Source: Scytonema tolypothrichoides VB-61278
GTDB taxonomy: Bacteria; Cyanobacteriota; Cyanobacteriia; Cyanobacteriales; Nostocaceae
Assembly (NCBI RefSeq): GCF_000828085.3
Contig: NZ_JXCA02000016.1
Span: forward strand, 643,608-707,607
DNA length: 64,000 nucleotides
Direction of reading: 5' to 3'
Shown here piece after piece: positions 4,528 to 32,652 of this stretch. Position 1 is the stretch's first letter; each line of letters begins with the position of its first letter. Position numbers and translations under genes: made by a program. Under the pieces are notes generated by a model that saw only the letters and a program-made list of their open reading frames with translations, ran no database searches and was not told the origin of the DNA.

Positions 4528-7500
4528 ATGTCATCAGAATTTTCGCAGCAGTTGTGTCAACAAGTAGCAACAGCATTTGACCAGGTTATTTCACAACAGG
4601 AACTAGCAGGGTGCATTGCACAGGCAGAAATCCTCGAACCAGCACCCACAAAGCAGTTTTGGCAAACAACAGACAGTATTGCCGGAGTGTATATAGTTCT
4701 TAGTGGCAAAGTCAGACTATTAGATAGCGCTGAGAACTTAATCACAACTCTAAGTACAGGTTCTTGCTTTGCAGAAGCTAGCTTGTTTCCAGAACAAGAC
4801 TTTTTACCGTATATTGCCAAAGCTTCAACGAACCTCAAGCTTTGCTATCTCAAACTAGAGATATTAAAAGTTTTAATAGATAAAAATCCTAGCCTTGGCG
4901 ATCGCTTACTGCAACGCGCTCAACTATGGGACTTACTACTGCGATGTCGGCAAAATCCGCAAATAGAGTGCCCGCCATCAGACGTACCAGAAATACTAAA
5001 AGGCTTATCTTATTTCTGTCAACACCAATTGGATAGCAATGAAAAAATATCGCTACCCAAAGATAGTAAATTGTGGCTGGTCTACAAAGGAGAACTGCGA
5101 CATACAAATGGTCAAAGTCTGACACCAGGCATAATTATTACACACTCCGCTCAAGGAAGTTGGCAAGCAACTGAACCAACCATCGCCTACGAACTCAAAG
5201 AAACACAATGGCAAACAGCCATTGAACACTGGCAACAATTGGCACAGTTGGTAGAACCCGAACAAGGTTCACCCGCACCTCAAGAGCAAAAGGTACGTCC
5301 TCGGAAATCAAAACCAGAACAAATTACTCCTTCTGGAAACGTCATCCCATTTCCCCAAAGGGAGTCAGGGACAACAAAACAACAGCCAAAAAAATCACGC
5401 GCCTACTTTCCAACTCCCAAAGTCAAAGTCGGGCAAGCGTGGGGACAACTAACCAAAAGCTACCCATTTTTTGCACAGCAAAGTGCTGCCGACTGTGGTG
5501 CCGCGTGTCTGGTGATGATAGCACGCTATTGGGGCAAACGCCTAAATCTGAATCGACTGCGGGAGTCAGCCAACGTCGACCGGTCTGGTGCATCACTCAG
5601 TGCTTTAGCCGCCGCCGCTGAAAATGTTGGCTTTGCAACGCGTCCAGTCAAAGCCAGCTTTGATAAATTAGCACAACAATCTCTACCAGCCATCGTCCAT
5701 TGGGAAGGCAAACACTATATAGTCCTCTATGAAATTACCCCAAAGCAAGTGATTGTCGGTGACCCTGCGATTGGTCAACGCATTCTCAGCCCAAAGGAAT
5801 TTCAGGCAGGTTGGACTGGATATGCTTTATTGCTGCAACCCACAGCTGTACTAAAAGAAACAGAAGAAGACAGCACAGGCATCTGGAGGTTTTTTGAGCT
5901 ACTCAAGCCGCACATTTGGGTACTACTGGAAGTGTTCTTTGCTTCAGTGCTGATTCAGGCGTTTGGCCTAATCACGCCCTTATTTACCCAACTGCTTTTT
6001 GATAGAGTGATTGTCCAGGGTAGCACCTCTACATTAAACGCCGTCTGTCTAGGGTTGATCATATTTGGTTTGTTCAGCATCGCTGTCAATGGCTTACGGC
6101 AATATCTCTTAGCGCATACAGCAAACCGTGTCAGCATTGCACTGTTAGTAGGTTTTATCAAACATACCCTACGCTTACCCCTATCGTTCTTCGAGTCTCG
6201 CTATGTCGGAGATATTGTCTCTCGCATCCAAGAAAACCAAAAAATTCAAAACTTCCTCACAGGGGAAACACTGTCAATCATTCTGGATTTGTTGACAGTG
6301 TTTATTTATGCAACATTAATGTTTTGGTATAACTGGCGGATGGCACTTCTAGGGTTGATGACTGTGCCGCCATTTTTTATCCTGACACTAGCTTCCACAA
6401 GCATCTTGCGTCGGATGTCCAGAGAGATTTTCAATGCAGGCGCTGAACAAAGCAGTTACCTGATTCAAGCCCTCACGGGTATTCGTTCTGTGCGTTCAAT
6501 GGCAATTGAACATACAGTGCGCTGGCGTTGGGAAGAATTGCTGAATACTTTGATCAAAAAATCCTTTAGCGCACAGATTATTGGCAATAATCTGCAAATT
6601 ATTAGTAGTGTCATCGACACTGTGATGCATACGGTATTGCTATGGTACGGGGCCTCGCTAGTCATTAATCAAGAACTAACCATTGGACAACTGATTGCTT
6701 TTAATATGTTGTTGGGCAACGTCCTCAGCCCTTTCAAGCGACTCAGCGTGGTGTGGAATCAATTCCAAGAAATTGTCATTTCTGTGGAACGCATCAACGA
6801 TGTTCTCGACGCAGAACCAGAAGAAGACTTGCAAAACAAACCCCGCAAGCCTTTGCGTCACATGCGCGGTCACATTCGCTTTGATAATGTCACTTTCCGC
6901 TATCACCCAGAAAGCAAAACGAACGTCCTGGAAAATCTCAGCTTTGAAATTCAGCCAGAACAAACAGTCGCGGTGGTGGGACGCAGTGGTTCTGGAAAGA
7001 CAACCTTGTCAAAGTTAATGTTGGGTCTATATACCGCAACCGAAGGCAAGGTCTTAGTCGATGGTCACGATGTGAATAGTATCACTCTTAAATCTCTGCG
7101 ACAGCAAATTGGTGTGGTAGACCAAGCGACTTTCTTGTTTGGCGGTACAATTCGAGAAAACATTGCTATCGCTCATCCAGAAGCATCTTTAGAAGACATT
7201 ATTGAAGCAGCACGTTTGGCTGGTGCAGATGAATTTATTCAGCAGCAACCAATGGGTTACGACACCGAAATTGGTGAAGGTGGTGGGATGCTTTCTGGTG
7301 GACAACGTCAACGTCTGGCGATCGCCCGCGCCTTGCTAGGTAATCCCCGATTTTTAATTTTCGATGAAGCCACCAGTAGCCTGGATGCGGAATCCGAACG
7401 AATCATTCAGAACAACTTGAAAACTATTCTTCAAGGACGCACGAGTCTGATTATTGCCCATCGCCTTTCCACTGTCCGCAACGCTGACTTAATTCTCGTG

Positions 7501-7605
7501 TTAGACCGGGGTGTCTTGGTCGAAAGCGGCACACACGACGAATTAATCGCCAAAAAAGGACATTACTACTACCTGAATCAACAACAACTTGCTCATGCAG
7601 GTTAA
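4528..7605 (+). CDS. Peptidase-containing ABC exporter (C39) with N-terminal cNMP-binding-like domain
   Basis: This 1025-residue inner-membrane exporter should cleave double-glycine leader peptides and pump out the released cargo. Residues about 30-125 resemble a cyclic-nucleotide-binding fold (VYIVLSGKVRLL, then FAEASLF). A Pro/Lys-rich linker (about 240-300) leads to a C39 peptidase at 310-440 with catalytic Cys323 (AADCGAACL), His396 (GKHYIVL) and Asp412 (GDPAIG) all present. Six membrane helices span about 455-730. The ATPase domain has Walker A GRSGSGKTT at 818-826, signature LSGGQ at 922-926, Walker B FLIFDEA at 942-948 and His978. The ATG follows a strong GGAGG site. HlyD and PpiC-type genes follow on the same strand. 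HetC of Anabaena is also a C39-type ABC exporter, and here a hetP-like gene lies upstream, but the adaptor and cargo genes argue for a peptide-export role. Confidence 0.9.
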   Translation: MSSEFSQQLCQQVATAFDQVISQQELAGCIAQAEILEPAPTKQFWQTTDSIAGVYIVLSGKVRLLDSAENLITTLSTGSCFAEASLFPEQDFLPYIAKASTNLKLCYLKLEILKVLIDKNPSLGDRLLQRAQLWDLLLRCRQNPQIECPPSDVPEILKGLSYFCQHQLDSNEKISLPKDSKLWLVYKGELRHTNGQSLTPGIIITHSAQGSWQATEPTIAYELKETQWQTAIEHWQQLAQLVEPEQGSPAPQEQKVRPRKSKPEQITPSGNVIPFPQRESGTTKQQPKKSRAYFPTPKVKVGQAWGQLTKSYPFFAQQSAADCGAACLVMIARYWGKRLNLNRLRESANVDRSGASLSALAAAAENVGFATRPVKASFDKLAQQSLPAIVHWEGKHYIVLYEITPKQVIVGDPAIGQRILSPKEFQAGWTGYALLLQPTAVLKETEEDSTGIWRFFELLKPHIWVLLEVFFASVLIQAFGLITPLFTQLLFDRVIVQGSTSTLNAVCLGLIIFGLFSIAVNGLRQYLLAHTANRVSIALLVGFIKHTLRLPLSFFESRYVGDIVSRIQENQKIQNFLTGETLSIILDLLTVFIYATLMFWYNWRMALLGLMTVPPFFILTLASTSILRRMSREIFNAGAEQSSYLIQALTGIRSVRSMAIEHTVRWRWEELLNTLIKKSFSAQIIGNNLQIISSVIDTVMHTVLLWYGASLVINQELTIGQLIAFNMLLGNVLSPFKRLSVVWNQFQEIVISVERINDVLDAEPEEDLQNKPRKPLRHMRGHIRFDNVTFRYHPESKTNVLENLSFEIQPEQTVAVVGRSGSGKTTLSKLMLGLYTATEGKVLVDGHDVNSITLKSLRQQIGVVDQATFLFGGTIRENIAIAHPEASLEDIIEAARLAGADEFIQQQPMGYDTEIGEGGGMLSGGQRQRLAIARALLGNPRFLIFDEATSSLDAESERIIQNNLKTILQGRTSLIIAHRLSTVRNADLILVLDRGVLVESGTHDELIAKKGHYYYLNQQQLAHAG

Positions 7606-7904
7606 AGTTTTAGGACTAAAGAACTGTACAAAGAGAAGATAATGTGCATTAACTAAAGTGTGACCTTAATGACGTTTTTGTTTTAGACAATTTACAAAAT
7701 GCTCATCAGATTCTCATATTTCATATGTATGTTGGAAACGACAATTCTCATTGAGCCAAAATAATGCGTCTTAAAAAGAGTTCAAACCGAAGATTTGACT
7801 CAATTCACATAATCAATTTTTTGACAATGCGTAAGTCCTAAGTTTTTACAGTAAACAGTAATCACCTCAGTGATCACTGATTTCGTGAACCACCAACGAA
7901 AACT

Positions 7905-9467
7905 ATGCCAAACACATCTCCTAATCCCTCATCTGGAGTTCCGAAACCCCAGCCTGATCCGCAAAAAAACTACATTCATTCAGCGACAAGTGCGGAATCT
8001 ACTGATTCAGTTAAGCAGACTGAAGCAACAGATGGGGCACAAGATTGGTTTTTCGGAACCGAAGAACTGTTAGATGCTTTACCTAAAGTCTGGACACGTT
8101 CTTCGCTGTACTTGTTAGTCGCTTTTGCAGTGATTATCTTACCTTGGGCGATGTTCTCAAAGGTGGATGAAACAGAGAGTGCGAGGGGACGTCTTGAACC
8201 CAAAGGCGCAACGCAAAAGTTAGATAGTCCAGTGGGTGGAAGTGTGACTGTTGTCAAGGTGAAAGAAGGCGACACCGTAAAATCAGGTCAGGTTCTACTG
8301 GAACTAGACTCAGAGGTTCTCAAAACTGAACTTAACCAGGTTCAAACAAAGTTGGACGGATTGCAAAATCGGCGCAAGAGTTCAGAACTACTCAAAAATC
8401 AATTGACGGTTTCTCTGCAAACTCAGCAACAACAAAACCAAGCTCAACTATTGGCAAAACAGTCTCAAGTAGATCAGGCGCGACAGAATTTAGATGCTCT
8501 CAAAGCCGTCTATAACTTACAAAAAGAGGAGAAACAGGCGAAAGTAGACCAGGTGCAGCAGGCTCTCAATTCTAGCAAGGCAGCTCAGAAATTAGCAGAA
8601 GTTCGTTTTCAAGCCTCTCAAGCAAAAGTCCCACGCTATAAAAAAGCCTATGAAGATGGTGTGATGTCACAAGAGCGCTTCAACGAAGTGGAACAGTCAG
8701 CAAAGGAAGACTACGAACGCGTTGTACAAGCTCAGTCTGAAATTGCTCAGACTCAGTCGAGCTTAAAAGAGCAACAAAGCAGTTATCAAAGGACAATTCA
8801 GCAAGCTCAGTCAGAAATCCAGCAAGCTGAACTCCGCTTTAAAGAAGAACAACGCAATTATCAAAGCTTGGTTCATACAGGTCAACTTGCACAACTCAAA
8901 GCAGAAGAACAACTCAAAGAACTGCAATCACAAATTGACTCCCTGCAATCGGAAATTTCCCAAACTCAAAGCCAATTGGCAGCATCAAAGATTCAGTTGC
9001 AGCAACGAGTGGTGCGATCGCCCATGAATGGTGTGATTTTTGAATTTCCCACTACCAAGCCGGGAGCCGTACTACAACCAGGTCAAAGAGTTGCTCAAAT
9101 TGCACCATTACAAGTTGGTGTGGTACTCAAAGCTCAGATACCTAACCAGAGCAGTGGCTTCTTAAAAGCAGGTATGCCTGCCAAAGTCAAATTTGATGCC
9201 TATCCTTTCCAGGAGTATGGCATCGTGTCAGGAAAAGTCAATTGGATTTCTCCAGACTCCAAAGTTCAGCAAACACCTCAAGGAAATGTAGAAAACTTTG
9301 AGTTAGAAATCACTTTAGATAAGCAGTATATCCAGAGTGGCAAAAAACGTATTCAATTCCTTCCAGGACAAACTGCAACCGCTGAGGTGATTATCCGCCA
9401 GCGGCGTATCATCGACTTCATCCTAGATCCATTTAAGAAATTGCACAAAGGTGGTTTAGACGTTTAG
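7905..9467 (+). CDS. HlyD-family membrane fusion (adaptor) protein
   Basis: This is the periplasmic adaptor that should link the ABC exporter upstream to an outer-membrane TolC-type channel, which is not encoded in the window. The 520-residue chain has a cytoplasmic N-terminus rich in Pro/Ser, a single membrane helix at about 67-84 (SLYLLVAFAVIILPWAMF), and a lipoyl-like half-motif at about 103-135 (SPVGGSVTVVKVKEGDTV). A very long Gln-rich coiled coil follows at about 138-365, then the second lipoyl half (VVRSPMNGVIFEF) and a beta-barrel C-terminus. The long hairpin is typical of type I secretion adaptors. It starts 299 bases after the exporter stop. That spacer contains no gene, so the two may share a transcript or have a promoter between them. 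Confidence 0.9.
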   Translation: MPNTSPNPSSGVPKPQPDPQKNYIHSATSAESTDSVKQTEATDGAQDWFFGTEELLDALPKVWTRSSLYLLVAFAVIILPWAMFSKVDETESARGRLEPKGATQKLDSPVGGSVTVVKVKEGDTVKSGQVLLELDSEVLKTELNQVQTKLDGLQNRRKSSELLKNQLTVSLQTQQQQNQAQLLAKQSQVDQARQNLDALKAVYNLQKEEKQAKVDQVQQALNSSKAAQKLAEVRFQASQAKVPRYKKAYEDGVMSQERFNEVEQSAKEDYERVVQAQSEIAQTQSSLKEQQSSYQRTIQQAQSEIQQAELRFKEEQRNYQSLVHTGQLAQLKAEEQLKELQSQIDSLQSEISQTQSQLAASKIQLQQRVVRSPMNGVIFEFPTTKPGAVLQPGQRVAQIAPLQVGVVLKAQIPNQSSGFLKAGMPAKVKFDAYPFQEYGIVSGKVNWISPDSKVQQTPQGNVENFELEITLDKQYIQSGKKRIQFLPGQTATAEVIIRQRRIIDFILDPFKKLHKGGLDV

Positions 9468-9552
9468 TCAAAAGTCAACTTCAACAGCTACCTACGCAGT
9501 ACCTGAACAGGGAACAAGGGGTGGACGAGTCCGTTTCCTAATGCGCTTCCTT

Positions 9553-9587
9553 GATAACTGATAACTGGTAACTGGTAACTGATAACT
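9553..9587. repeat. Five-unit heptamer tandem repeat
   Basis: Five consecutive 7-bp units read GATAACT, GATAACT, GGTAACT, GGTAACT, GATAACT between the HlyD and PpiC genes. Short heptamer tandem repeats in spacers are common in filamentous cyanobacteria. A ribosome site for the next gene follows about 35 bases later. Confidence 0.8.
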
Positions 9588-9636
9588 GTTTTAACGTTCC
9601 CAATCTAAAATTTCAAATTCCTAGGAGAATCGTGTC

Positions 9637-10419
9637 GTGTCAAACCCGTTGACCATTTCGTCCTCAGACCTGATTCACAGTCTGAAACTATCTTGTCAAA
9701 TCCCTGATGTTGTGGAAGCGATCGCGACCCAAAAAATTATTGCTGAGGCGGCCCAAGAAGCCGGGATTCAAGTCTCGGAACAAGAACTTCAACAAGAAGG
9801 AGATAGACTACGCTTTGCCAAAAAACTTGTCAAAGCTCAAGACACTTGGAACTGGCTCAAAAAACATCATCTCTCTCTGGCTGAGTTTGAAGAATTGATC
9901 CATAACAACGTACTTGCTACTAAGTTAGCTAATCACCTGTTTGCACAGGATGTGGAACGGTTCTTTTATGAAAACCAACTCAATTACGTTGCTGCTGCCA
10001 CTTATGAAGTTATCTTAGATGACAGAGACTTAGCTTTAGAACTGTTTTATTCTCTCGAATCAGGCGAAATCACTTTCCAAGAAATTGCTCGTGAATATAT
10101 TCAACAGCCTGAACTTCGACGTGCTGGAGGATATCAAGGAATGCGACGTCGTAAAGATTTTCGACCAGAGATTGCAGCGGCTGTATTTGCTGCCACTCCA
10201 CCCTCCGTTATCAAGCCGATTTCGACTTCCAAGGGAGTTTATTTGATTTGGGTAGAAGAAATTGTTCAACCTATCTTGGATGAGCAGTTACGTGACAAAA
10301 TTCAGCAAGAATTGTTTGAACATTGGTTGAATGAACAAATTCAAACGATAGAGATTGACACAAATTTAGATTTAGGTATTGATTTTCAAGGTTCGCAAGA
10401 GTTGCGTAAGCAAGCTTGA
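9637..10419 (+). CDS. PpiC/SurA-type peptidylprolyl isomerase
   Basis: The 260-residue product has a helical SurA-like N-terminal half (about 5-110) and a parvulin-type rotamase domain at about 115-225, with 'ATYEVILDDRDLALELFYSL', 'FQEIARE' and the 'GGYQGMRRRKDF' stretch. Such proteins are often encoded beside C39/HlyD exporters in cyanobacteria and are thought to assist folding or handling of exported peptides; that role is inferred here from position. No signal peptide is evident, so it may act on the cytoplasmic side. The GTG at 9637 is chosen because AGGAG lies nine bases upstream (9623-9627). It is the third gene of the export set. Confidence 0.85.
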   Translation: MSNPLTISSSDLIHSLKLSCQIPDVVEAIATQKIIAEAAQEAGIQVSEQELQQEGDRLRFAKKLVKAQDTWNWLKKHHLSLAEFEELIHNNVLATKLANHLFAQDVERFFYENQLNYVAAATYEVILDDRDLALELFYSLESGEITFQEIAREYIQQPELRRAGGYQGMRRRKDFRPEIAAAVFAATPPSVIKPISTSKGVYLIWVEEIVQPILDEQLRDKIQQELFEHWLNEQIQTIEIDTNLDLGIDFQGSQELRKQA

Positions 10420-10914
10420 TTTTTTCGATTTCTGAAAAAAAGTGACTTTGTAAACAAATTTTGTATGTAGCGACTGATTCTCCTTTTGTTATAAAGGGGC
10501 TAAAGGCTTTTTTTTATTTAAAATAATTAAAAACTCTTTTTATAAAAGGGTAGCAATATAAGTGATTGCAATAATGAAAAATTCTATAAATCAAAAATGT
10601 TTTAGCGAAATCAATTGAAGTTTTCGTCTTCAAGATAATTTCATAATTAAAAATAAATAGAATCAGATAAACAGTTGATGTAAGTAACTTTATATTGACT
10701 GTTTAGTTGTGTTTTTTTAAATCTTAAAACTACGCATACTTGATAAGTCATAAACGGAAAAAATGGCTTCTAAATATAAAATAAACATATGAAAAATACA
10801 GCCAAAAAGTATTGCTTTTTAAATTGGATATTGTATAGTTATAAATGTAAGCAAAACAAAGCGCTTACAAAACAAATTCCCAAACAAAACAAATTAGTTC
10901 CCAGGAGGAACCCC
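10420..10914. other. 495-bp AT-rich spacer before the first leader peptide gene
   Basis: No gene is supported. The open frame upstream of 10915 (from an ATG at 10789) is Lys-rich, lacks a ribosome site and does not continue the leader peptide pattern. The spacer is strongly AT-rich and probably holds the promoter and 5' leader of the short peptide genes. Confidence 0.55.
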
Positions 10915-11211
10915 ATGATTATCTCTGATCTTAACTACTTGGAAAATACATCTGAAGAAATCTTCGGTGGCCGTGGTACTAACATCGCTAACGTCAACAC
11001 TACCAACGTAACCAGCGTAATATCTATTAACGAAACCATCGTCAAGACTGTAGTTACTAACATCGGTGGTGTCGTAGGAAGCACAGCTGAATTTACAGCA
11101 AGCGCTGATGCTTCAGGTAACAACACCTTCAGCAGTGTAACCGCTGGTGCTCAAACAGAGCCTGGCAGATCTGAATCTTTCGCTACCGGTATTGCTATTA
11201 GCAGACCATAG
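10915..11211 (+). CDS. Double-glycine leader peptide, probable exporter cargo
   Basis: The start is set by a strong AGGAGG at 10902-10907 before the ATG at 10915; longer upstream frames lack one. The 98-residue product begins MIISDLNYLENTSEEIFGG, a hydrophobic/acidic leader ending in Gly-Gly at residues 18-19, the type cut by C39 peptidases. The predicted mature part (about 79 residues) is rich in Thr, Val, Asn, Ser and Ala, has no Cys and little charge, so lanthionine-type modification is unlikely. The gene at 11391 shares the 'ISDLN' leader block. The nearby exporter, adaptor and isomerase support export. The function of the mature peptide (signal, bacteriocin or structural) is unknown. Confidence 0.75.
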   Translation: MIISDLNYLENTSEEIFGGRGTNIANVNTTNVTSVISINETIVKTVVTNIGGVVGSTAEFTASADASGNNTFSSVTAGAQTEPGRSESFATGIAISRP

Positions 11212-11987: not shown

Positions 11988-12256
11988 GGATTAAATCAGT
12001 GAACAGCTACTTACGCAGTCCAGACAGCGTATGGTGAGACTGGTGCTGAAACTGTTGGGGAATCGAATGTGGGGTGGACACTGCCTATCTTAGTGTGTCC
12101 TTGGTGTGCCGTGAGGAGGTAATGCCCACCTTACAAATTAAGATTTTTAGCAATTCGCCTGAAACCAAGAAAGAGGCGCGATGAATCAATCGCGTCTTTG
12201 GCAGATTGAGAACGAATGAACATAGACCGATTTCAAACTTTTAGGAGATGAAGAAT

Positions 12257-13069
12257 ATGCTTACTAAAGAGCAAATCATTGCACAAGTTAACGAACGAAA
12301 AAACCAAATACAACAGAAAGTAGGAGGTCTCACAGGCAGTCAAACTGGAACTGAAGGAAGAGATCGACTCTTTGGAGGTATGAACAATGACTCCCTAGTG
12401 GGACTCGGCGGCGATGACTTCATTTCGGCTGGCTTAGGCGATGATTTCATCGATGGGGGCACCGGCGATGACGACCTTTTTGGAGGTCTTGGCAATGACT
12501 ACATCCTAGGAGGTGATGGTAATGACAAGATTTATGGGCAGGTCGGCGATGACTTACTGTATGGCGGTGCTGGCAATGATACCATCGATGGGAGCATTGG
12601 CAGTGACGTTATTTTTGGCGGCGATGGTAATGACAATCTGATTGGAGGTCCCAACGGAGACCCCAATGCCCCTGAGGACTTCTTTGTGGATTTTCTCATT
12701 GGGGGTAACGGGAGTGACACCCTTAACGCGTTTGGCGGTGGTACAGGAAACCTTATTGAGAGAGATATCTTAGTTGGTGGCGGTGCGGTTGACGCAAACG
12801 GAAGTATCACAAGTATTGATGGCGATGGCGCTACAGACATCTTCGTGCTTGGAAATGCCAACGGCTATTTTTACGCCAACGCTGGCAACGACGATTATGC
12901 TATTATTTACGGCTTCGAGAAAGGTGTGGATCAGCTCCAACTAACCACAAAAGCAGGTACAAGTCATCAATTTGGTCTCACTGCGAGTGGTAACACACTG
13001 GTTTATGCTAACCTCGCTACTGGTCCGGATCTGATTGCGATTGTGGCAGGAGTCAATCTTCTTAGCTAA
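12257..13069 (+). CDS. RTX calcium-binding repeat protein
   Basis: About 270 residues. The ATG at 12257 is preferred over the one at 12248 because the AGGAG at 12243-12247 abuts the earlier ATG and sits nine bases from the later one. A short helical N-terminus (LTKEQIIAQVNERKNQI) precedes a block of Gly-Asp-rich nonapeptides (GGLGNDYILGGDGNDKIYG and similar) at about residues 35-140. These form calcium-binding beta-rolls in hemolysin-type proteins. The C-terminal 100 residues lack repeats and have the hydrophobic pattern common in type I secreted proteins. It lies downstream of the HlyD/ABC genes, which fits type I secretion, though a C39 exporter usually takes leader peptides rather than RTX proteins. 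No catalytic domain is visible. Confidence 0.85.
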   Translation: MLTKEQIIAQVNERKNQIQQKVGGLTGSQTGTEGRDRLFGGMNNDSLVGLGGDDFISAGLGDDFIDGGTGDDDLFGGLGNDYILGGDGNDKIYGQVGDDLLYGGAGNDTIDGSIGSDVIFGGDGNDNLIGGPNGDPNAPEDFFVDFLIGGNGSDTLNAFGGGTGNLIERDILVGGGAVDANGSITSIDGDGATDIFVLGNANGYFYANAGNDDYAIIYGFEKGVDQLQLTTKAGTSHQFGLTASGNTLVYANLATGPDLIAIVAGVNLLS

Positions 13070-13209
13070 GGGACTTTCAAAGTTTGACCTTCTCCCCCGC
13101 TAACGCCCTGACATGAACTCCTATTTCTTGGAATTTTTACAGGGGAATTTATCAGCGGCATCTGCTTACATTTGCAGACAAACTTTACAAGAGGATAAAC
13201 AAGAAGTTC

Positions 13210-14439
13210 ATGGCACCAGAGACTGTATTTTTACAACCAATTAACACAACTCCTAATCCTAATTTTGCTACAGCTACAGGGCTTGCTGTTTACTCCAACT
13301 ATAGTCAACCTTCAGCAGGTTTTTTGACTGGCGCGCAGGTGGATGTATTGGTCAGAGGTGGCGTAGCTGCTGCTATTGGTGAAGCAGCAGCTATTTTTAA
13401 CAATGACCCAACTTTCTCTGTACTCTTCAATGACAGTACTGGCGTTGGTTTAGATGGTCCCTATGCGGGAAGTTCCAACAGTCAAACTAAAGTCCTTGCT
13501 AGTTTTGCAGTTAAGGCTAATCAAACCTTCTCTTTCGATTTTTCAGCAGATGTCGCACTGACAGCGAAAGAAATTGAAAATCCTAATGCTGAATATAACG
13601 AGGCGAAATCGAAAACTGCTTTCGTGGTGTTAGACACCAAAGATCCCAATAAACCCAAGGTCTTAGATTATTTTGGCATCAGTGGTAAGTTAATTACTTC
13701 TAAGAAAGTCGGCGAACTGAAGTTTGGGGGTAGTAAAAATGTCAACATTGCCACTCCCAATCAAACTCGTGATGTTGATGGCAATAATGGCCTGGACTCT
13801 GTCACAGGCAAGTATGGTGGAACTTATCGGCAGACGTTTAAGGAGGATACCAACATAACTCTAGTGGAAGTTAATGCCACTGCCGTTGCCTTTTTAGGGG
13901 ATACTTTAATCGACAATCTGGGAAAAGATGTTATCTATGGCACGATTGAAGACGATAAACTGCGTGGCAGCAACAGTGCCAATAAAATATATGGCAGCCT
14001 AGGAGATGATTCCCTAGACGGAAACAAAGGTGATGATATCCTCGAAGGAGGCCCAGGGAATGATCGGCTGTATGGAGATGAGGGTGATGATAAACTCAGT
14101 GGTGGTTCCGGCGATGACATCCTGATTGGTGGTCGTGGTAGTGATGTGTTGGTTGGTGGCGACGGCTATGACCAATTTGTTTTCAAAGGTAGCGATAGCT
14201 CAAAAAATGACTACGATGTTATTAAAGACTTCCAGGTTGGTACGGATAAGTTAGTATTCCAAAACGGGAATAATCTTAGTCCTGATCAATGGTTAAAAGA
14301 GATGTTTACTCAAGGTAACATAACCGATACCAAAGATGGTGTTCTCTTCGACTTTGAGCGTCGATGGACTGAAGGGAAATTATTGCTTGAAGGTGTGAGT
14401 TCCAATCAGATTAACTCTCAATCAATAGTGTTCACTTAG
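13210..14439 (+). CDS. RTX-repeat protein with unrecognised N-terminal domain
   Basis: The 409-residue product starts at the ATG at 13210, with a purine-rich AAGAGG further upstream. Residues 1-235 form an unrecognised domain rich in Ala, Asn and Thr (STGVGLDGPYAGSSNSQ, FSFDFSADVALTAKEIE) that looks extracellular and beta-rich. Residues about 240-325 hold hemolysin-type calcium-binding repeats (GSLGDDSLDGNKGDDILEGG). The last 80 residues match the usual RTX C-terminal pattern ('GYDQFVF', 'DVIKDFQVGTDKLVF'), which often carries the type I secretion signal. It follows the other RTX gene by 140 bases on the same strand. Function beyond probable secretion and calcium binding is unknown. Confidence 0.85.
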   Translation: MAPETVFLQPINTTPNPNFATATGLAVYSNYSQPSAGFLTGAQVDVLVRGGVAAAIGEAAAIFNNDPTFSVLFNDSTGVGLDGPYAGSSNSQTKVLASFAVKANQTFSFDFSADVALTAKEIENPNAEYNEAKSKTAFVVLDTKDPNKPKVLDYFGISGKLITSKKVGELKFGGSKNVNIATPNQTRDVDGNNGLDSVTGKYGGTYRQTFKEDTNITLVEVNATAVAFLGDTLIDNLGKDVIYGTIEDDKLRGSNSANKIYGSLGDDSLDGNKGDDILEGGPGNDRLYGDEGDDKLSGGSGDDILIGGRGSDVLVGGDGYDQFVFKGSDSSKNDYDVIKDFQVGTDKLVFQNGNNLSPDQWLKEMFTQGNITDTKDGVLFDFERRWTEGKLLLEGVSSNQINSQSIVFT

Positions 14440-23520: not shown

Positions 23521-23537
23521 ACTTGCAATCAGAGCTT

Positions 23538-24062
23538 ATGAATCAAGAAAAAATAACAAATAACAAACAATCAAAAGGTAGCTGTCTGTTTTGCGGCTCA
23601 GAGTTAAACCATACTTTCGTAGATTTAGGTATGTCTCCTCCCTGCGAAAGCTATCGTCAGCCAGAACAGCTAAACGAAATGGAGCCTTTTTATCCACTGC
23701 ATGCTTATGTTTGTGAAAAATGTTTTTTAGTGCAACTTCAAGAGTATATTCGTCCTGAAAATATCTTCAGCGACTACGCTTATTTTTCTTCTTACTCTCA
23801 AACGTGGTTACAACATGCCAAGAACTACGTTGATACGGTAGTAGAACGCTTTCAATTAACTGCCCAGAGTCAAGTAGTAGAAATAGCTAGCAATGATGGT
23901 TACTTGCTGCAATACTTTGTTGCCAAAGGTATACCTGCACTAGGATATGTGTTAATTGTGCACTAGAATCTCAAAGATGAAATTATGGTACAAATGGCTG
24001 ATATTCGTACTTGGAGTGGTCAATTTGTTGTCCCAATTCCAGAAGTAAAGGTTTACATTTAA
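23538..24062 (+). pseudogene. Sugar C-methyltransferase remnant with internal deletion
   Basis: The first 140 residues from the ATG at 23538 match the zinc-binding N-terminus of SAM-dependent C-methyltransferases acting on nucleotide sugars (CLFCGSELNHTFVDLGMSPP, then CEKCFLVQLQEY), followed by the start of the SAM fold (VVEIASNDGYLLQYF). The frame then ends at a TAG at 23964-23966. Directly after it, in the same frame, the family's C-terminus reads 'NLKDEIMVQMADIRTW' and 'FVVPIPEVKVYI' to a TAA at 24060. Family members are about 410 residues; about 220 from the middle are gone, including most of the catalytic domain, so the product cannot be active. The genes that follow are typical partners in branched-sugar pathways. 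Confidence 0.85.
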
Positions 24063-27060: not shown

Positions 27061-27258
27061 ATGAAGCGCGAACAAGTTGTAGTGAAACGGATAGTCTCAC
27101 CAGATGGCAAAGTTATTGCTGAAATAAAGAGTTTTGTCAAAGCATCTGGTGATGGTCAAAGTCAGATTAATCAAAGCGTTTCAGTAAAAGTTTCATCTGA
27201 TAAAAACTTCCGCAGTTCTTCACAATATAGTTTTCATTCTGTTTCTTATTCTGGTTAG
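27061..27258 (+). CDS. Small Ser-rich peptide of the IVSPDGKVIAE family
   Basis: The 65-residue product starts at the ATG at 27061; an in-frame TTG at 27037 overlaps the previous gene. Its N-terminal half (VVVKRIVSPDGKVIAEIKS, then KASGDGQSQ) is nearly the same as that of the broken gene at 11779, and both continue 'QS(V/I)SVK(V/I)SS'. The tails then differ: here Ser with Tyr, Phe and His; there Ser with Lys and Cys. A conserved front and variable Ser-rich tail is what one expects of a ribosomal peptide precursor, and it lies 165 bases upstream of the microviridin precursor. It has no Gly-Gly leader. I know no named function for this family; the precursor idea is inference. Confidence 0.6.
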   Translation: MKREQVVVKRIVSPDGKVIAEIKSFVKASGDGQSQINQSVSVKVSSDKNFRSSSQYSFHSVSYSG

Positions 27259-27423: not shown

Positions 27424-27774
27424 ATGTCTGACAGTGATAAGCAAGCTTCAAATGATAAAGCAGTACCATTCTTTGCTCGCTATTTAGAAGGACAATTCTG
27501 TGAAGACTTGTCTGAAGAAGAAATGGAAAACGTTCATGGTGGTTCTACAGAGATTTCTGATGCTAAAGGAGGAATAGTCACCACTTTGAAATATCCATCT
27601 GATAATGAAGAGGGTGGTTCTGTAATTACTAAAAGGCACCCCTCAGATAAAGACGATTGCGGTGGTGGAATATCCGTTACTAGGAAGTATCCATCAGACA
27701 ACGAGGACGCTGTTACGCTAAAGTATCCATCAGATGGTGATGACGACATAATTGCTATAGATACCGTAGAATAA
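27424..27774 (+). CDS. mdnA: Microviridin-type precursor peptide with four core repeats
   Basis: The 116-residue precursor carries the microviridin leader motif PFFARYLE at residues 15-22, which the ATP-grasp ligases bind, and then 'LSEEEMENVHGG' (29-40), a good double-glycine processing sequence. Four core-like segments follow: TLKYPSDNEE (54-63), TKRHPSDKDD (69-78), TRKYPSDNED (86-95) and TLKYPSDGDD (98-107). The known consensus is T-x-K-Y-P-S-D-x-E/D-E/D, with Thr and Ser forming esters and Lys an amide to acidic side chains. Cores 1, 3 and 4 keep every crosslinking residue. Core 2 has Arg in place of Lys and His in place of Tyr. A GGAG site lies seven bases before the ATG. Microviridins are usually protease inhibitors. 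Most known precursors have one core. Confidence 0.93.
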   Translation: MSDSDKQASNDKAVPFFARYLEGQFCEDLSEEEMENVHGGSTEISDAKGGIVTTLKYPSDNEEGGSVITKRHPSDKDDCGGGISVTRKYPSDNEDAVTLKYPSDGDDDIIAIDTVE

Positions 27775-27794: not shown

Positions 27795-28775
27795 ATGCAC
27801 CAACCGCGTCATGTTGTTTTATTAATCACTCATAGTGGTGATTTTTTCACAATTGATAGAGTTGAACAAGCCCTATTAAAAAAAGGAGCGCAACCGTTCC
27901 GCTTCGACACAGATAAATTTCCACTTGCTGTGCAACTCAAAGCTCAACTCAGTAATTCTGGGAGTGATTATAGGCTGGAATATGGTAACAACTCTATCAG
28001 CACAAAGCAGGTGCAAGCTGTTTGGATGCGTCGCATTTGGCAACCTTATTTAGGTGAAAAATTAGCTCCACAGTTCAAAGCAGCCTGTGCTAAAGAGTCA
28101 TTAGCGACTTTAGATGGCTTTTGGGACAGTCTTAGACAAGCCAGTTGGGTAGATAATTTGCAGCGGATAAACGTTGCAGAGAACAAACTGCATCAACTGA
28201 GGGTAGCGTGTGAGGTGGGTCTTATCATACCCGAAACTCTTGTCACCAACAATGCCCAGGAGGCGCGGGAGTTTTTCTATAAGGTGAAGGGGAAGATGGT
28301 TGCTAAGCTGCTAACTCCTCTTTCTACAACTATGAAAGGCTCCTCTTTCTTCTTGTATACTAGCGCTGTCAAAGAAGAAGACTTGTTAGACGCTGAGACA
28401 TTGCGCTATTGCCCGATGGTCTTTCAAGAAGAAATTCCCAAACACAAAGAACTACGAGCGGTGTTTGTGGATGGTACTTTCTTTGTAGGGGCGTTAGATG
28501 CGTCCACATATACAACATCCACACTTGACTGGCGACGTGCGGACTCAAACGCTTGTGAATGGGAATCTCATCAGCTACCTGATGATGTCGCTAATCGTCT
28601 CAAAGCCTTTATGGTACATTTTGGACTGCGGTTTGGAGCATTTGATTTGATTCAAACACCATCAGGAAAATATGTGTTTTTAGAAGTTAATCCCACAGGA
28701 GAGTGGGGAATGCTAGAACGAGATTTGGGCTATCCTATTTCTGAGGCGATCGCAAACGCCCTGATCACAAAATAA
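27795..28775 (+). CDS. mdnB: Microviridin ATP-grasp ligase, MdnB/MvdC type (lactam-forming)
   Basis: The 326-residue protein matches the MvdC/MdnB family of graspetide ligases: 'LITHSGDFFTIDRVEQAL' at residues about 10-27, 'PFRFDTDKFPL', and the ATP-grasp C-terminus 'FGAFDLIQTP...FLEVNPTGEWGMLE' with the metal-binding Glu-x-Asn. In characterised systems this enzyme makes the amide between core Lys and an acidic side chain, after the ester-forming enzyme has acted. It starts 20 bases after the precursor stop, so it is in the same transcript. Assignment as B rather than C rests on 'HSGDFFTID' in place of 'SQDNESIP'. Length is normal. Confidence 0.92.
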   Translation: MHQPRHVVLLITHSGDFFTIDRVEQALLKKGAQPFRFDTDKFPLAVQLKAQLSNSGSDYRLEYGNNSISTKQVQAVWMRRIWQPYLGEKLAPQFKAACAKESLATLDGFWDSLRQASWVDNLQRINVAENKLHQLRVACEVGLIIPETLVTNNAQEAREFFYKVKGKMVAKLLTPLSTTMKGSSFFLYTSAVKEEDLLDAETLRYCPMVFQEEIPKHKELRAVFVDGTFFVGALDASTYTTSTLDWRRADSNACEWESHQLPDDVANRLKAFMVHFGLRFGAFDLIQTPSGKYVFLEVNPTGEWGMLERDLGYPISEAIANALITK

Positions 28776-28834: not shown

Positions 28835-29845
28835 ATGACAATTTTAATCATTACTCACAGCCAAGACAACGAAAGTATTCCTCTAGTGATGAACGCAATC
28901 AAAACTCAAGGAGGAAAAGCGTTTCGTTTTGACACAGACAGATTTCCCACAGAAGTTCAGCTAGATGCTTACCATACCAAAGAATGTGAAAAACTCATTC
29001 TGACAACTGACGAACAAAAACTAGACTTAAGTGAAGTTTCCGCAGTTTGGTATCGGCGAATTGCCATTGGGGCAAGAATTCCTGGTAAAATGGACGCGCA
29101 ATTAAGACAAGCCTCACTTCAAGAATCTCGTGCCACCATTCAGGGAATGATTGCCAGTATCAAAGGGTTTCACCTTGATCCCCTGCAAAATATTCGTTTA
29201 GCCGAAAACAAGCAACTACAGCTGCAAGTGGCACGGAAACTTGGTTTAGATACTCCACGCACCTTGACAACAAATAATCCAGAGACAGTAAAGCAATTTG
29301 CTCACGAGTGCGAAGAGGGAATGATTGTGAAAATGCTTTCTTCTTTCGCTATCTACGATGAAAAAGGGGAGGAACAGGTTGTTTTTACCAATCCAGTCAA
29401 AGATGAAGATTTAGAAAATCTTGAGGGACTGCGTTTCTGCCCAATGACGTTTCAGGAGAAACTCCCAAAGGCGCGAGAGTTGCGGACAACAATTGTCGGA
29501 CAGCGTGTTTTCACAGCTGCTGTTGACTCTCAACGCAATCAAAAAGCTCAATACGACTGGCGACGACAGGGACTTGCTTTTCTCAACGCTTGGGAGTCCT
29601 ACGATTTGCCAGAAGACGTAGAGAAAAAACTTCTTGAACTGATGAGCTACTTCGGTTTAAATTATGGGGCGATTGATATTATCTTAACACCTGATGGACG
29701 ACACGTATTCCTAGAGATTAACCCTGTTGGGGAGTTCTTTTGGCTTGAACGGTGTCCTGGCTTGCCAATTTCTCAAGCAATTGGTGAGGTTCTTCTCACC
29801 TCTAAGAATGCACCGCATTCTACTAAGCTTCTTGCAAAAGTATGA
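28835..29845 (+). CDS. mdnC: Microviridin ATP-grasp ligase, MdnC/MvdD type (lactone-forming)
   Basis: The 336-residue product opens 'TILIITHSQDNESIPLVMNA' and continues 'FRFDTDRFPTEVQLD', the signature of MdnC/MvdD, which makes the two ester bonds (Thr-Asp and Ser-Glu/Asp) in the core. Other family landmarks are 'AVWYRRI', 'ENKQLQLQVARKLGL', 'RFCPMTFQEKLPKARELR' and the metal-site 'VFLEINPVGEFFWLE' near the C-terminus. It follows mdnB by 59 bases. No mdnD-type acetyltransferase or mdnE-type ABC transporter follows: the next gene is on the other strand. The products may therefore lack N-acetylation unless the enzyme is encoded elsewhere. Confidence 0.93.
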   Translation: MTILIITHSQDNESIPLVMNAIKTQGGKAFRFDTDRFPTEVQLDAYHTKECEKLILTTDEQKLDLSEVSAVWYRRIAIGARIPGKMDAQLRQASLQESRATIQGMIASIKGFHLDPLQNIRLAENKQLQLQVARKLGLDTPRTLTTNNPETVKQFAHECEEGMIVKMLSSFAIYDEKGEEQVVFTNPVKDEDLENLEGLRFCPMTFQEKLPKARELRTTIVGQRVFTAAVDSQRNQKAQYDWRRQGLAFLNAWESYDLPEDVEKKLLELMSYFGLNYGAIDIILTPDGRHVFLEINPVGEFFWLERCPGLPISQAIGEVLLTSKNAPHSTKLLAKV

Positions 29846-31092: not shown

Positions 31093-32652
31093 GTGATTGA
31101 AGCAGAAGTTCATTTGTCATTACATAACTTCCTGCGATCGCAGGCAGGTTTCCCTTCATGGCCACATCATTTGACAATGGCACGATTAGTGGCTCGTGCC
31201 TTGCGCCTAGGACGTAGCGCCCTGATTCAAGTCGGCGCAGCTTGCGGCTATCAGGGGCGGTATCGCACCAGCTTTGTGGCTTCGGCATTAATGTGGCACG
31301 GTCCTGTGATTATTGTTGCCCCTGAATCCACACAGCAACGACTGACGAAAGTGGAAATACCCCGCCTACAACAGTGGCTGCAAGTTAATAAAGCAATCAG
31401 AACAGGTGACGCTTGGCCTGGTGGTGAGTTCCAAGGAGTCTTTTTGATCTCTCCCGCAGCTTGGTTAAAAGCACAACTGAGTAAGAATAATAATTTTCCT
31501 AGTGACATCCCCACAATTATTGATGGAGTGGACGATTTGGAAGATTGGGTACGTTCTGAACTCACTGTGAGCTTAGAAGCACAAGATTGGGAACAGCTCA
31601 TGCTTGCCCAGCCAGCCCAAGCTGAGGTTATTCGTTCTGCACGGGCGCAACTCACACACGAGCTGTTTAAGCACCCTGCAAATCCCTACGAATGTTATCT
31701 GATTTCTCCGGCGGAAGAAGAGATTTTGACCTCTCTGTATTCGGTTTTAGATATATCTGGCATACCCGATACCTGGAAAAAATTCGCGATAGCATTTCAG
31801 GTGAGAAACGAAAATCTCTCTCCCTCATCTTCCCCATCCCTACTCTGGGCAACTATTGCCCGTCGCCAAGGTTTATTTTCTTTGCACTGTGTCCCGATTG
31901 AATTAGGAAAAATACTCTCGCCTATTTGGCAGCGTCAGCCTGTGGTGTTTATTGGCAGTGCTGTAGAACCAGAAACTGAAGCCCCCTTATTTCGCCAGCG
32001 CTTCGGGTTGGAAGATGAGTTAACTTGCCTCAAGTTTTCTTCAGATAATCAAACAGAAGCGATTCAATTGTACATACCTTACCAGTTACCCTTACCTAAC
32101 ACGCCAGAGTTTCAGCCAGCGTTTCTTCATAAAGTTATGACACTGGTTTGCTTAAGCGCGACAGCACCAGGATTGACAGTTGTGCTTGTGGGGGATGTAC
32201 CGCTAAAAGCCCAAGTGGGGACAATTCTTGCTTCTGAGTTTGGTTCACGGGTACAGGTGGAAAAAACTTGTTTGGATGAAAATGGTATTTTGGTGAGTGG
32301 TTGGGAATTTTGGCGTGAGCATCAAAAGGTTTTGCCTGCTCCCCAGCTTTTGGCGATCGCCACTTTACCCTTGCCATCTCTAGAAAACCCCTTAGTGGCA
32401 GGACGAGTGGCGCACTACAAGAGTTTGCATCAAGATTGGTTTCGTTTGTACTTGTTGCCAATTGCGATGAATGAATTGCAACGGGCGATCGCCCCACTGC
32501 GCGAAAGTAAAGGCATCGTTGCTTTGCTAGATAGTCGCGTGATTATCCGTAGCTATGGTGCTCAAGTTTTGGCTGCCCTCAGTCCCCTTGCACGTATTAA
32601 CTACCTTGATCCCAATCTGTTTTCCTCTGTCACAGAGGAAGATTCAGCTTAA
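31093..32652 (+). CDS. DinG/XPD-like helicase-related protein with degenerate ATP site
   Basis: The 519-residue product starts at a GTG at 31093. Its front half resembles a cyanobacterial group annotated as helicases: 'SWPHHLTMARLVARALRLGRSALIQVG' spans residues about 21-47 and should be followed by a Walker A, but the expected GxGKT/S is replaced by 'CGYQGRYRTSF'. A 'IIDGVDDLEDWV' stretch stands where a DEAH-like box is expected. The back half (VVLVGDVPLKAQVG; then 'ATLPLPSLENPLVAGRV' and 'RAIAPLRESKGIVALLDSRVIIRSYG') resembles the C-terminal part of DinG-type helicases. It may bind DNA without strong ATPase activity. This is a family-level guess from pattern memory. Confidence 0.55.
   Translation: MIEAEVHLSLHNFLRSQAGFPSWPHHLTMARLVARALRLGRSALIQVGAACGYQGRYRTSFVASALMWHGPVIIVAPESTQQRLTKVEIPRLQQWLQVNKAIRTGDAWPGGEFQGVFLISPAAWLKAQLSKNNNFPSDIPTIIDGVDDLEDWVRSELTVSLEAQDWEQLMLAQPAQAEVIRSARAQLTHELFKHPANPYECYLISPAEEEILTSLYSVLDISGIPDTWKKFAIAFQVRNENLSPSSSPSLLWATIARRQGLFSLHCVPIELGKILSPIWQRQPVVFIGSAVEPETEAPLFRQRFGLEDELTCLKFSSDNQTEAIQLYIPYQLPLPNTPEFQPAFLHKVMTLVCLSATAPGLTVVLVGDVPLKAQVGTILASEFGSRVQVEKTCLDENGILVSGWEFWREHQKVLPAPQLLAIATLPLPSLENPLVAGRVAHYKSLHQDWFRLYLLPIAMNELQRAIAPLRESKGIVALLDSRVIIRSYGAQVLAALSPLARINYLDPNLFSSVTEEDSA

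Follow-up and report, generated by a model that had tools for sequence, protein, structure and literature searches.

In microviridins the rings are closed by the linkages Thr4-Asp10, Ser9-Glu12, and Lys6-Glu/Asp13 (PMC9826346). Marinostatin, with the sequence Phe-Ala-Thr-Met-Arg-Tyr-Pro-Ser (PMC9623506, Table 3), has the same lactones (two esters) and no lactam (PMC13039773), and a review ties it to the absence of MdnB (PMC7823629). Precursors with several cores form a named class (PMC7823629; PMC13039773; PMC5934393). AMdnC was reported to esterify the three cores of AMdnA from Anabaena sp. PCC 7120 independently of one another, and AMdnA additionally has a quasi-core (PMC5934393). The group 1 motif is perfectly matched by only 121 of the 185 precursors of the microviridin cluster (PMC8939145); variation of cores as such is therefore already known.

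Here, a stretch of 64,000 nucleotides from Scytonema tolypothrichoides VB-61278 (the window) was analyzed. It resembles the AMdnA/AMdnB/AMdnC system in having one PFFAR-type leader, several TxKYPSDx(D/E)(E/D) cores, and ATP-grasp ligases. However, AMdnA has three cores, whereas the precursor in the window has four, one of them without the lactam lysine. The class, its chemistry, and a precedent for arginine at this place are known; what is unusual is the mixture of cores beside a lactam ligase that looks intact.

Results

Precursor and ligase genes

The ORF at 27424..27774 (+) encodes 116 aa, starts with ATG, and is preceded by AAAGGAG. It matched the Pfam family PF12559 with 105.1 bits (E 2.3e-30, cut-off 21) and the NCBIfam family NF033738 with 92.5 bits (E 2e-26, cut-off 26), and a chance ORF is therefore excluded. 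The original prediction of a microviridin precursor with four cores was thus borne out. Its further statement, that single-core precursors prevail among those described, fits the classical isolated microviridins but not the multi-core class II, whose published members have as many as five cores (PMC7823629; PMC13039773; PMC5934393).

The leader (27424..27543, +) carries the PFFARFL-type motif PFFARYL at residues 15–21 and a GG motif at residues 39–40; a ligase-docking role of the PFFAR-type motif is taken from PMC7823629. It is followed on the same strand by core 1 TLKYPSDNEE (27583..27612), core 2 TKRHPSDKDD (27628..27657), core 3 TRKYPSDNED (27679..27708), and core 4 TLKYPSDGDD (27715..27744), with the P1 residues Leu, Lys, Arg, and Leu, respectively. 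Three cores agree fully with TxKxPSDx(D/E)(D/E), and core 2 has Arg for Lys. GG or GGG stands directly before cores 1, 2, and 3, and not before core 4. With its leader motif, both family matches above cut-off, tandem cores, and two adjacent ligases, the gene belongs to class II. Core 3 (TRKYPSD) shares the Arg between Thr and Lys with microviridin J, a trypsin inhibitor (PMC7823629), but differs in being one of four tandem cores and in ending with NED. A profile search of the genome returned the ORF as the sole PF12559 match, and no second precursor of this family was found. A PDB search with the precursor gave only the MdnA peptide bound in structure 5ig9 (E 0.16).

The precursor gene is followed by mvdC and then by mvdD. 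The full-length lactam-forming ATP-grasp ligase MvdC/MdnB (27795..28775, +, 326 aa) scored 507.5 bits with TIGR04185 (cut-off 425), and its best structural match was AMdnB (7m4s, E 1.9e-148). The ester-forming ATP-grasp ligase MvdD/MdnC (28835..29845, +, 336 aa) reached 547.4 bits with TIGR04184 (cut-off 475), with the ligase structure 5ig9 as best match (E 3.8e-135). The window MvdC deviates at one (E292K) of the columns that show at least 98% conservation among MvdC sequences; for 103 other MvdC, the mean was 0.68 deviations at the same columns, and 42 of the 103 had at least one. By the same yardstick, the window MvdD had one deviation and the others 0.64 on average, after removal of 12 MvdD matches with a stop in the aligned stretch. 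An inactivated cluster was considered and rejected, both ligase ORFs being open with a single deviation each, although such conservation is by itself no proof that MvdC is active. The profile search found no second MvdC above the TIGR04185 cut-off in this genome. Outside the window, the genome contains a third, distant MvdD/MvdC-like ATP-grasp ligase (G000:C8:127333-128226, locus L183), which scored 43.1 bits with PF21068 and 100.1 bits with TIGR04185, the latter below the cut-off.

A small ORF (27061..27258, +) lies upstream of the precursor gene. No family matched it above cut-off in the profile search; by tblastn, its first 34–51 residues resemble ORFs that precede several other class II clusters (L035, L099, L120, L125, L126, L161, and L260). 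Elsewhere in the window, 31093-32652 encodes the C-terminal region of a DinG/YoaA-like helicase (YoaA model positions 349–621 of 630) with the front part missing, and the 147-aa ORF 23523-23966, possibly cut short, resembles what we take to be the beginning of a sugar methyltransferase.

Substitution of the lactam lysine in core 2

Codons 70 to 72 read AAA (Lys), AGG (Arg; 27634-27636), and CAC (His), confirming the predicted Arg71 at the place of the lactam lysine and His for Tyr beside it. Among the collected cores, this place is occupied by Lys in 305 of 314. Core 2 retains Thr, Pro, Ser, Asp, and both acids; its ester residues are complete and the lactam lysine alone is lost. The precursor thus unites, as had been proposed, three lactam-competent cores with one unable to form the usual lactam, in a cluster with both ligases.

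The same-genus genome G022 (L008/L031) encodes the cores TTLKYPSDNED, FTKKYPSDKDD, FTKKYPSDSDE, and MTQKYPSDGDD. As compared to its TKKYPSDKDD, core 2 of the window has Arg instead of Lys at the lactam place and His instead of the neighboring Tyr. Since the relative already carries the preceding lysine, Lys70 is ancestral and Arg71 derived by parsimony; the original description of a lysine moved one place earlier is not supported.

Over the eight residues of marinostatin compared (FATMRYPS), core 2 shares the pattern Thr-x-Arg-(Tyr/His)-Pro-Ser, with Arg at the lactam place. Marinostatin, however, is tied to the absence of the lactam ligase MdnB (PMC7823629), whereas the cluster in the window has a full-length MvdC, and core 2 shares its precursor with three lactam-type cores. 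Locus L185 encodes TMRYPSDNED, which matches the marinostatin residues from Thr to Ser, with MvdD and no MvdC nearby.

Survey of multi-core precursors

Within the family, 112 of 217 genomes have a PF12559 match, as do 67 of 388 drawn from the order, 29 of these 67 belonging to the same family. Precursors were collected among the matches listed and from a part of the regions, chosen mostly by ORFs of about 80 aa or more; further loci came from the best 80 of 136 relatives ranked by similarity to the window MvdC. Owing to this choice of loci, short single-core precursors are under-sampled and MvdC loci over-sampled. A PFFAR-like motif was required, which leaves precursors without it outside the count. 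To be counted, a core needed agreement with 6 of the 8 consensus places, among which the Lys is included, and in each precursor one core needed agreement with 7.

After removal of identical sequences, the set comprised 160 distinct precursors, 102 of them with two or more cores. The P1 series is patterned: among 64 three-core precursors, the first P1 residue was Leu in 38, the middle one Lys in 41, and the last one Gln in 33. Hydrophobic and basic P1 residues occurred together in 82 of the 102 multi-core precursors. A GG within the 7 residues upstream was found for only 101 of the 317 cores of multi-core precursors; cutting at GG between cores is therefore not general.

Lactam lysine and adjacent MvdC

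Precursors were divided according to whether the locus DNA examined contained an intact MvdC within 5 kb or had it absent or as a fragment. With an intact MvdC nearby (122 precursors, 266 cores), two cores were without the lysine, namely TLNLPSDREE in L256 and core 2 of the window. Where none was nearby (27 precursors, 76 cores), eight such cores occurred in seven precursors, and 20 of the 27 had Lys in every core. Counted by precursor and ignoring kinship, the difference (7/27 vs 2/122) gave a Fisher P-value of 8.8e-5. Because L186/L187 and L188/L190 are near-duplicates, the precursors with non-Lys cores represent about five lineages. The comparison leaves out 11 precursors, none with a non-Lys core, for which the locus sequence stops within MvdC. 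An intact MvdD was nearby for 14 of the 27 (five with a non-Lys core) and not for the other 13 (two with one), so some of the 27 may be orphans. Loss of the lactam lysine is thus associated with the absence of an adjacent MvdC, an association that is new here.

The precursors at L034 and L185-L190 have Arg, Ala, or Asn at the lactam place; they resemble the window precursor in their non-Lys cores but have no intact MvdC within 5 kb. Of the genomes with such cores and no adjacent MvdC, G170, G065, G062, G096, and G097 encode an MvdC above cut-off elsewhere, and G024 and G059 encode none. Three of the nine non-Lys cores (of 314) have Arg, and within the collected set the window has the only one beside an intact MvdC.

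The acid at position 10 was missing in five of nine non-Lys cores, as compared to nine of 305 Lys cores. First cores with Ala at the lactam place (L034, L079, L082, L085, and L086) were without this acid in five out of five cases, both lactam partners being lost as in TLAYPSDNES, TMAYPSDQEG, and TLAYPSDQEG. A paired loss of both partners was rejected for the window: the three Arg cores keep the position-10 acid, and the five losses are Ala cores.

Same-genus relatives

Among seven same-genus genomes, only that of the window has an intact adjacent MvdC. In G020 and G025 (L032 and L033), the adjacent copy retains residues 1–127 with 92–93% identity, and in G022 it is reduced to fragments; judged by eye in the alignment, these three remnants share a deletion junction. 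All three genomes have another intact MvdC elsewhere, near a separate PF12559 precursor. In G023 and G024, the adjacent MvdC is missing, and neither genome has an MvdC above cut-off anywhere. The profile search gave no PF12559 match in G021 (89% complete).

In L032 and L033, the remnant forms an open frame of 151 codons, and the part of MvdC that it retains coincides almost exactly with the PF21068 pre-ATP-grasp domain. Between G020 and G025, it shows 12 synonymous and 7 nonsynonymous differences (dN/dS 0.14), a ratio that would fit continued constraint. Since the synonymous distances in the fragment disagree with those of MvdD, recombination may explain this value, and dN/dS is uninformative for the truncated MvdC.

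Export and processing

A cassette upstream of the precursor gene comprises a C39-peptidase ABC transporter (4528..7605, +; PF03412, E 2.4e-40), its HlyD membrane-fusion partner (7905..9467, +; TIGR01843, 230.7 bits, cut-off 208.65), and a PpiC-type prolyl isomerase (9637..10419, +; PF00639, 36.7 bits, cut-off 21.7). This cassette (4528-10419) is a candidate for the leader peptidase and exporter of the precursor. The transporter gene ends 20 kb and the cassette 17 kb upstream of the precursor gene, with RTX, TPR, and sugar genes in between. Because C39 matches number 13 across the genome and 10 of these are strong, the assignment of the transporter is a lead.

For 66 multi-core precursors, at least 4.5 kb of upstream sequence was available. 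HlyD and/or PpiC homologs of the window type were located upstream on the same strand in 12 of them, including same-genus L034 and L035; identities were 50–79% for HlyD, 63–74% for PpiC, and, where the sequence covers it, 80–88% for C39. The transporter homolog upstream of the precursor in L034 is 80% identical. A different C39 transporter was next door in eight of the 66. By these criteria, the remaining 46, including same-genus L031-L033 and L189, had neither cassette homologs nor another adjacent C39; L189 has a C39 (62%) downstream of its precursor. Furthermore, the genome encodes a single peptidase of family M1, to which NosP, a leader peptidase of class I, belongs (PMC13039773).

Small GG-leader peptides of the type MIISDLNYLE...EEIFGG were observed beside the C39-HlyD-PpiC cassette in the window (10789-11211) and in L034 (7964-8251 and 7441-7764); they are possibly other cargo of the exporter. 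Two RTX calcium-binding repeat proteins are encoded at 12248-14439, between the cassette and the TPR/sugar genes.

Discussion

From these genes we infer the following ring pattern, processing, and protease targets. The PFFARYL leader helix would dock MvdD, which would introduce a pair of ester rings into every one of the four cores; MvdC would then link Lys to the acid as a lactam in cores 1, 3, and 4. A guanidinium group is a poor nucleophile for the lactam reaction; therefore, core 2 would stay bicyclic, as marinostatin is. A C39 peptidase would cut behind the GG motif of the leader, and further cuts would separate the cores. Position 2 of a core varies and is P1, the residue said to set protease specificity (PMC7823629), and the series Leu, Lys, Arg, and Leu may direct the products to different serine proteases. 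On this sequence evidence, we consider it probable that a single precursor gives rise to three tricyclic peptides and one bicyclic, marinostatin-like peptide.

Core 2 might instead be decaying, with Arg and His as products of drift in a repeat that no longer yields a useful product and acts as a spacer. This is possible because Tyr is also replaced by His and because relatives have degenerate cores (TNKFPRDKED, THKCHSDHED, TLKFPFDQED, and TEKYPYDSDE), some of them through a single key change; the quasi-core of AMdnA offers a precedent (PMC5934393). However, TLKFPFDQED, TEKYPYDSDE, and TNKFPRDKED have lost the ester serine, whereas the ester residues of core 2 are all intact, and we regard decay as unlikely.

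Alternatively, the lactam step may be failing throughout the lineage, with MvdC weak or unexpressed, all four cores bicyclic, and Lys71 free to change. The five same-genus, precursor-bearing relatives in which the adjacent MvdC is truncated (G020, G022, and G025) or absent (G023 and G024) make relaxed selection in the lineage plausible. In the window, however, MvdC is full length, scores above its cut-off with one deviation, and is the sole MvdC over the cut-off in the genome, and cores 1, 3, and 4 keep both Lys and the acid at position 10. A general failure thus appears rather improbable.

A shifted lactam in core 2 through Lys70 (or Lys76), as the original prediction had allowed, is very improbable even though both lysines and the acids are close by in sequence: of the 55 cores that have Lys at position 2 and an intact MvdC nearby, 54 retain the lactam lysine, the exception being the window, and that lysine would be needless if Lys at position 2, here the P1 residue Lys70, could substitute for it; furthermore, the ligases are described as inflexible at the cyclization residues, MvdD being inert when a hydroxyl was moved by one place, in an ester test only (PMC7823629). 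An error in sequencing or assembly at codon 71 is equally improbable: AGG and AAG differ by one base, but completeness of the assembly is 99.97% and contamination 0.31% over its 31 contigs, the reading frame is uninterrupted, and the following codon (His72) likewise departs from the same-genus core.

We return to one bicyclic core among three tricyclic ones as the preferred reading. In the literature searched, no mention was found of lactam-Lys-free cores within multi-core precursors, which Ahmed et al. (2017) and Lee et al. (2020) may cover, nor a description of a lactam-free core in a precursor whose cluster retains the lactam ligase. The number of rings may be coded core by core with both ligases at work, and, in view of the relatives without an adjacent MvdC, the lineage may stand between the microviridin and marinostatin families; we give this wider proposal an even chance.

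Against elastase, the bicyclic form of MdnA is a roughly 100-fold weaker inhibitor than the tricyclic one, and it is itself cut (PMC11672978). Lactam-free cores in about five lineages despite this weakness would offer a naturally occurring experiment on the function of the lactam ring, and the precursor in the window would be a substrate with its internal control within one polypeptide. Furthermore, the association of the lactam lysine with an adjacent MvdC would allow the number of rings to be predicted from gene content.
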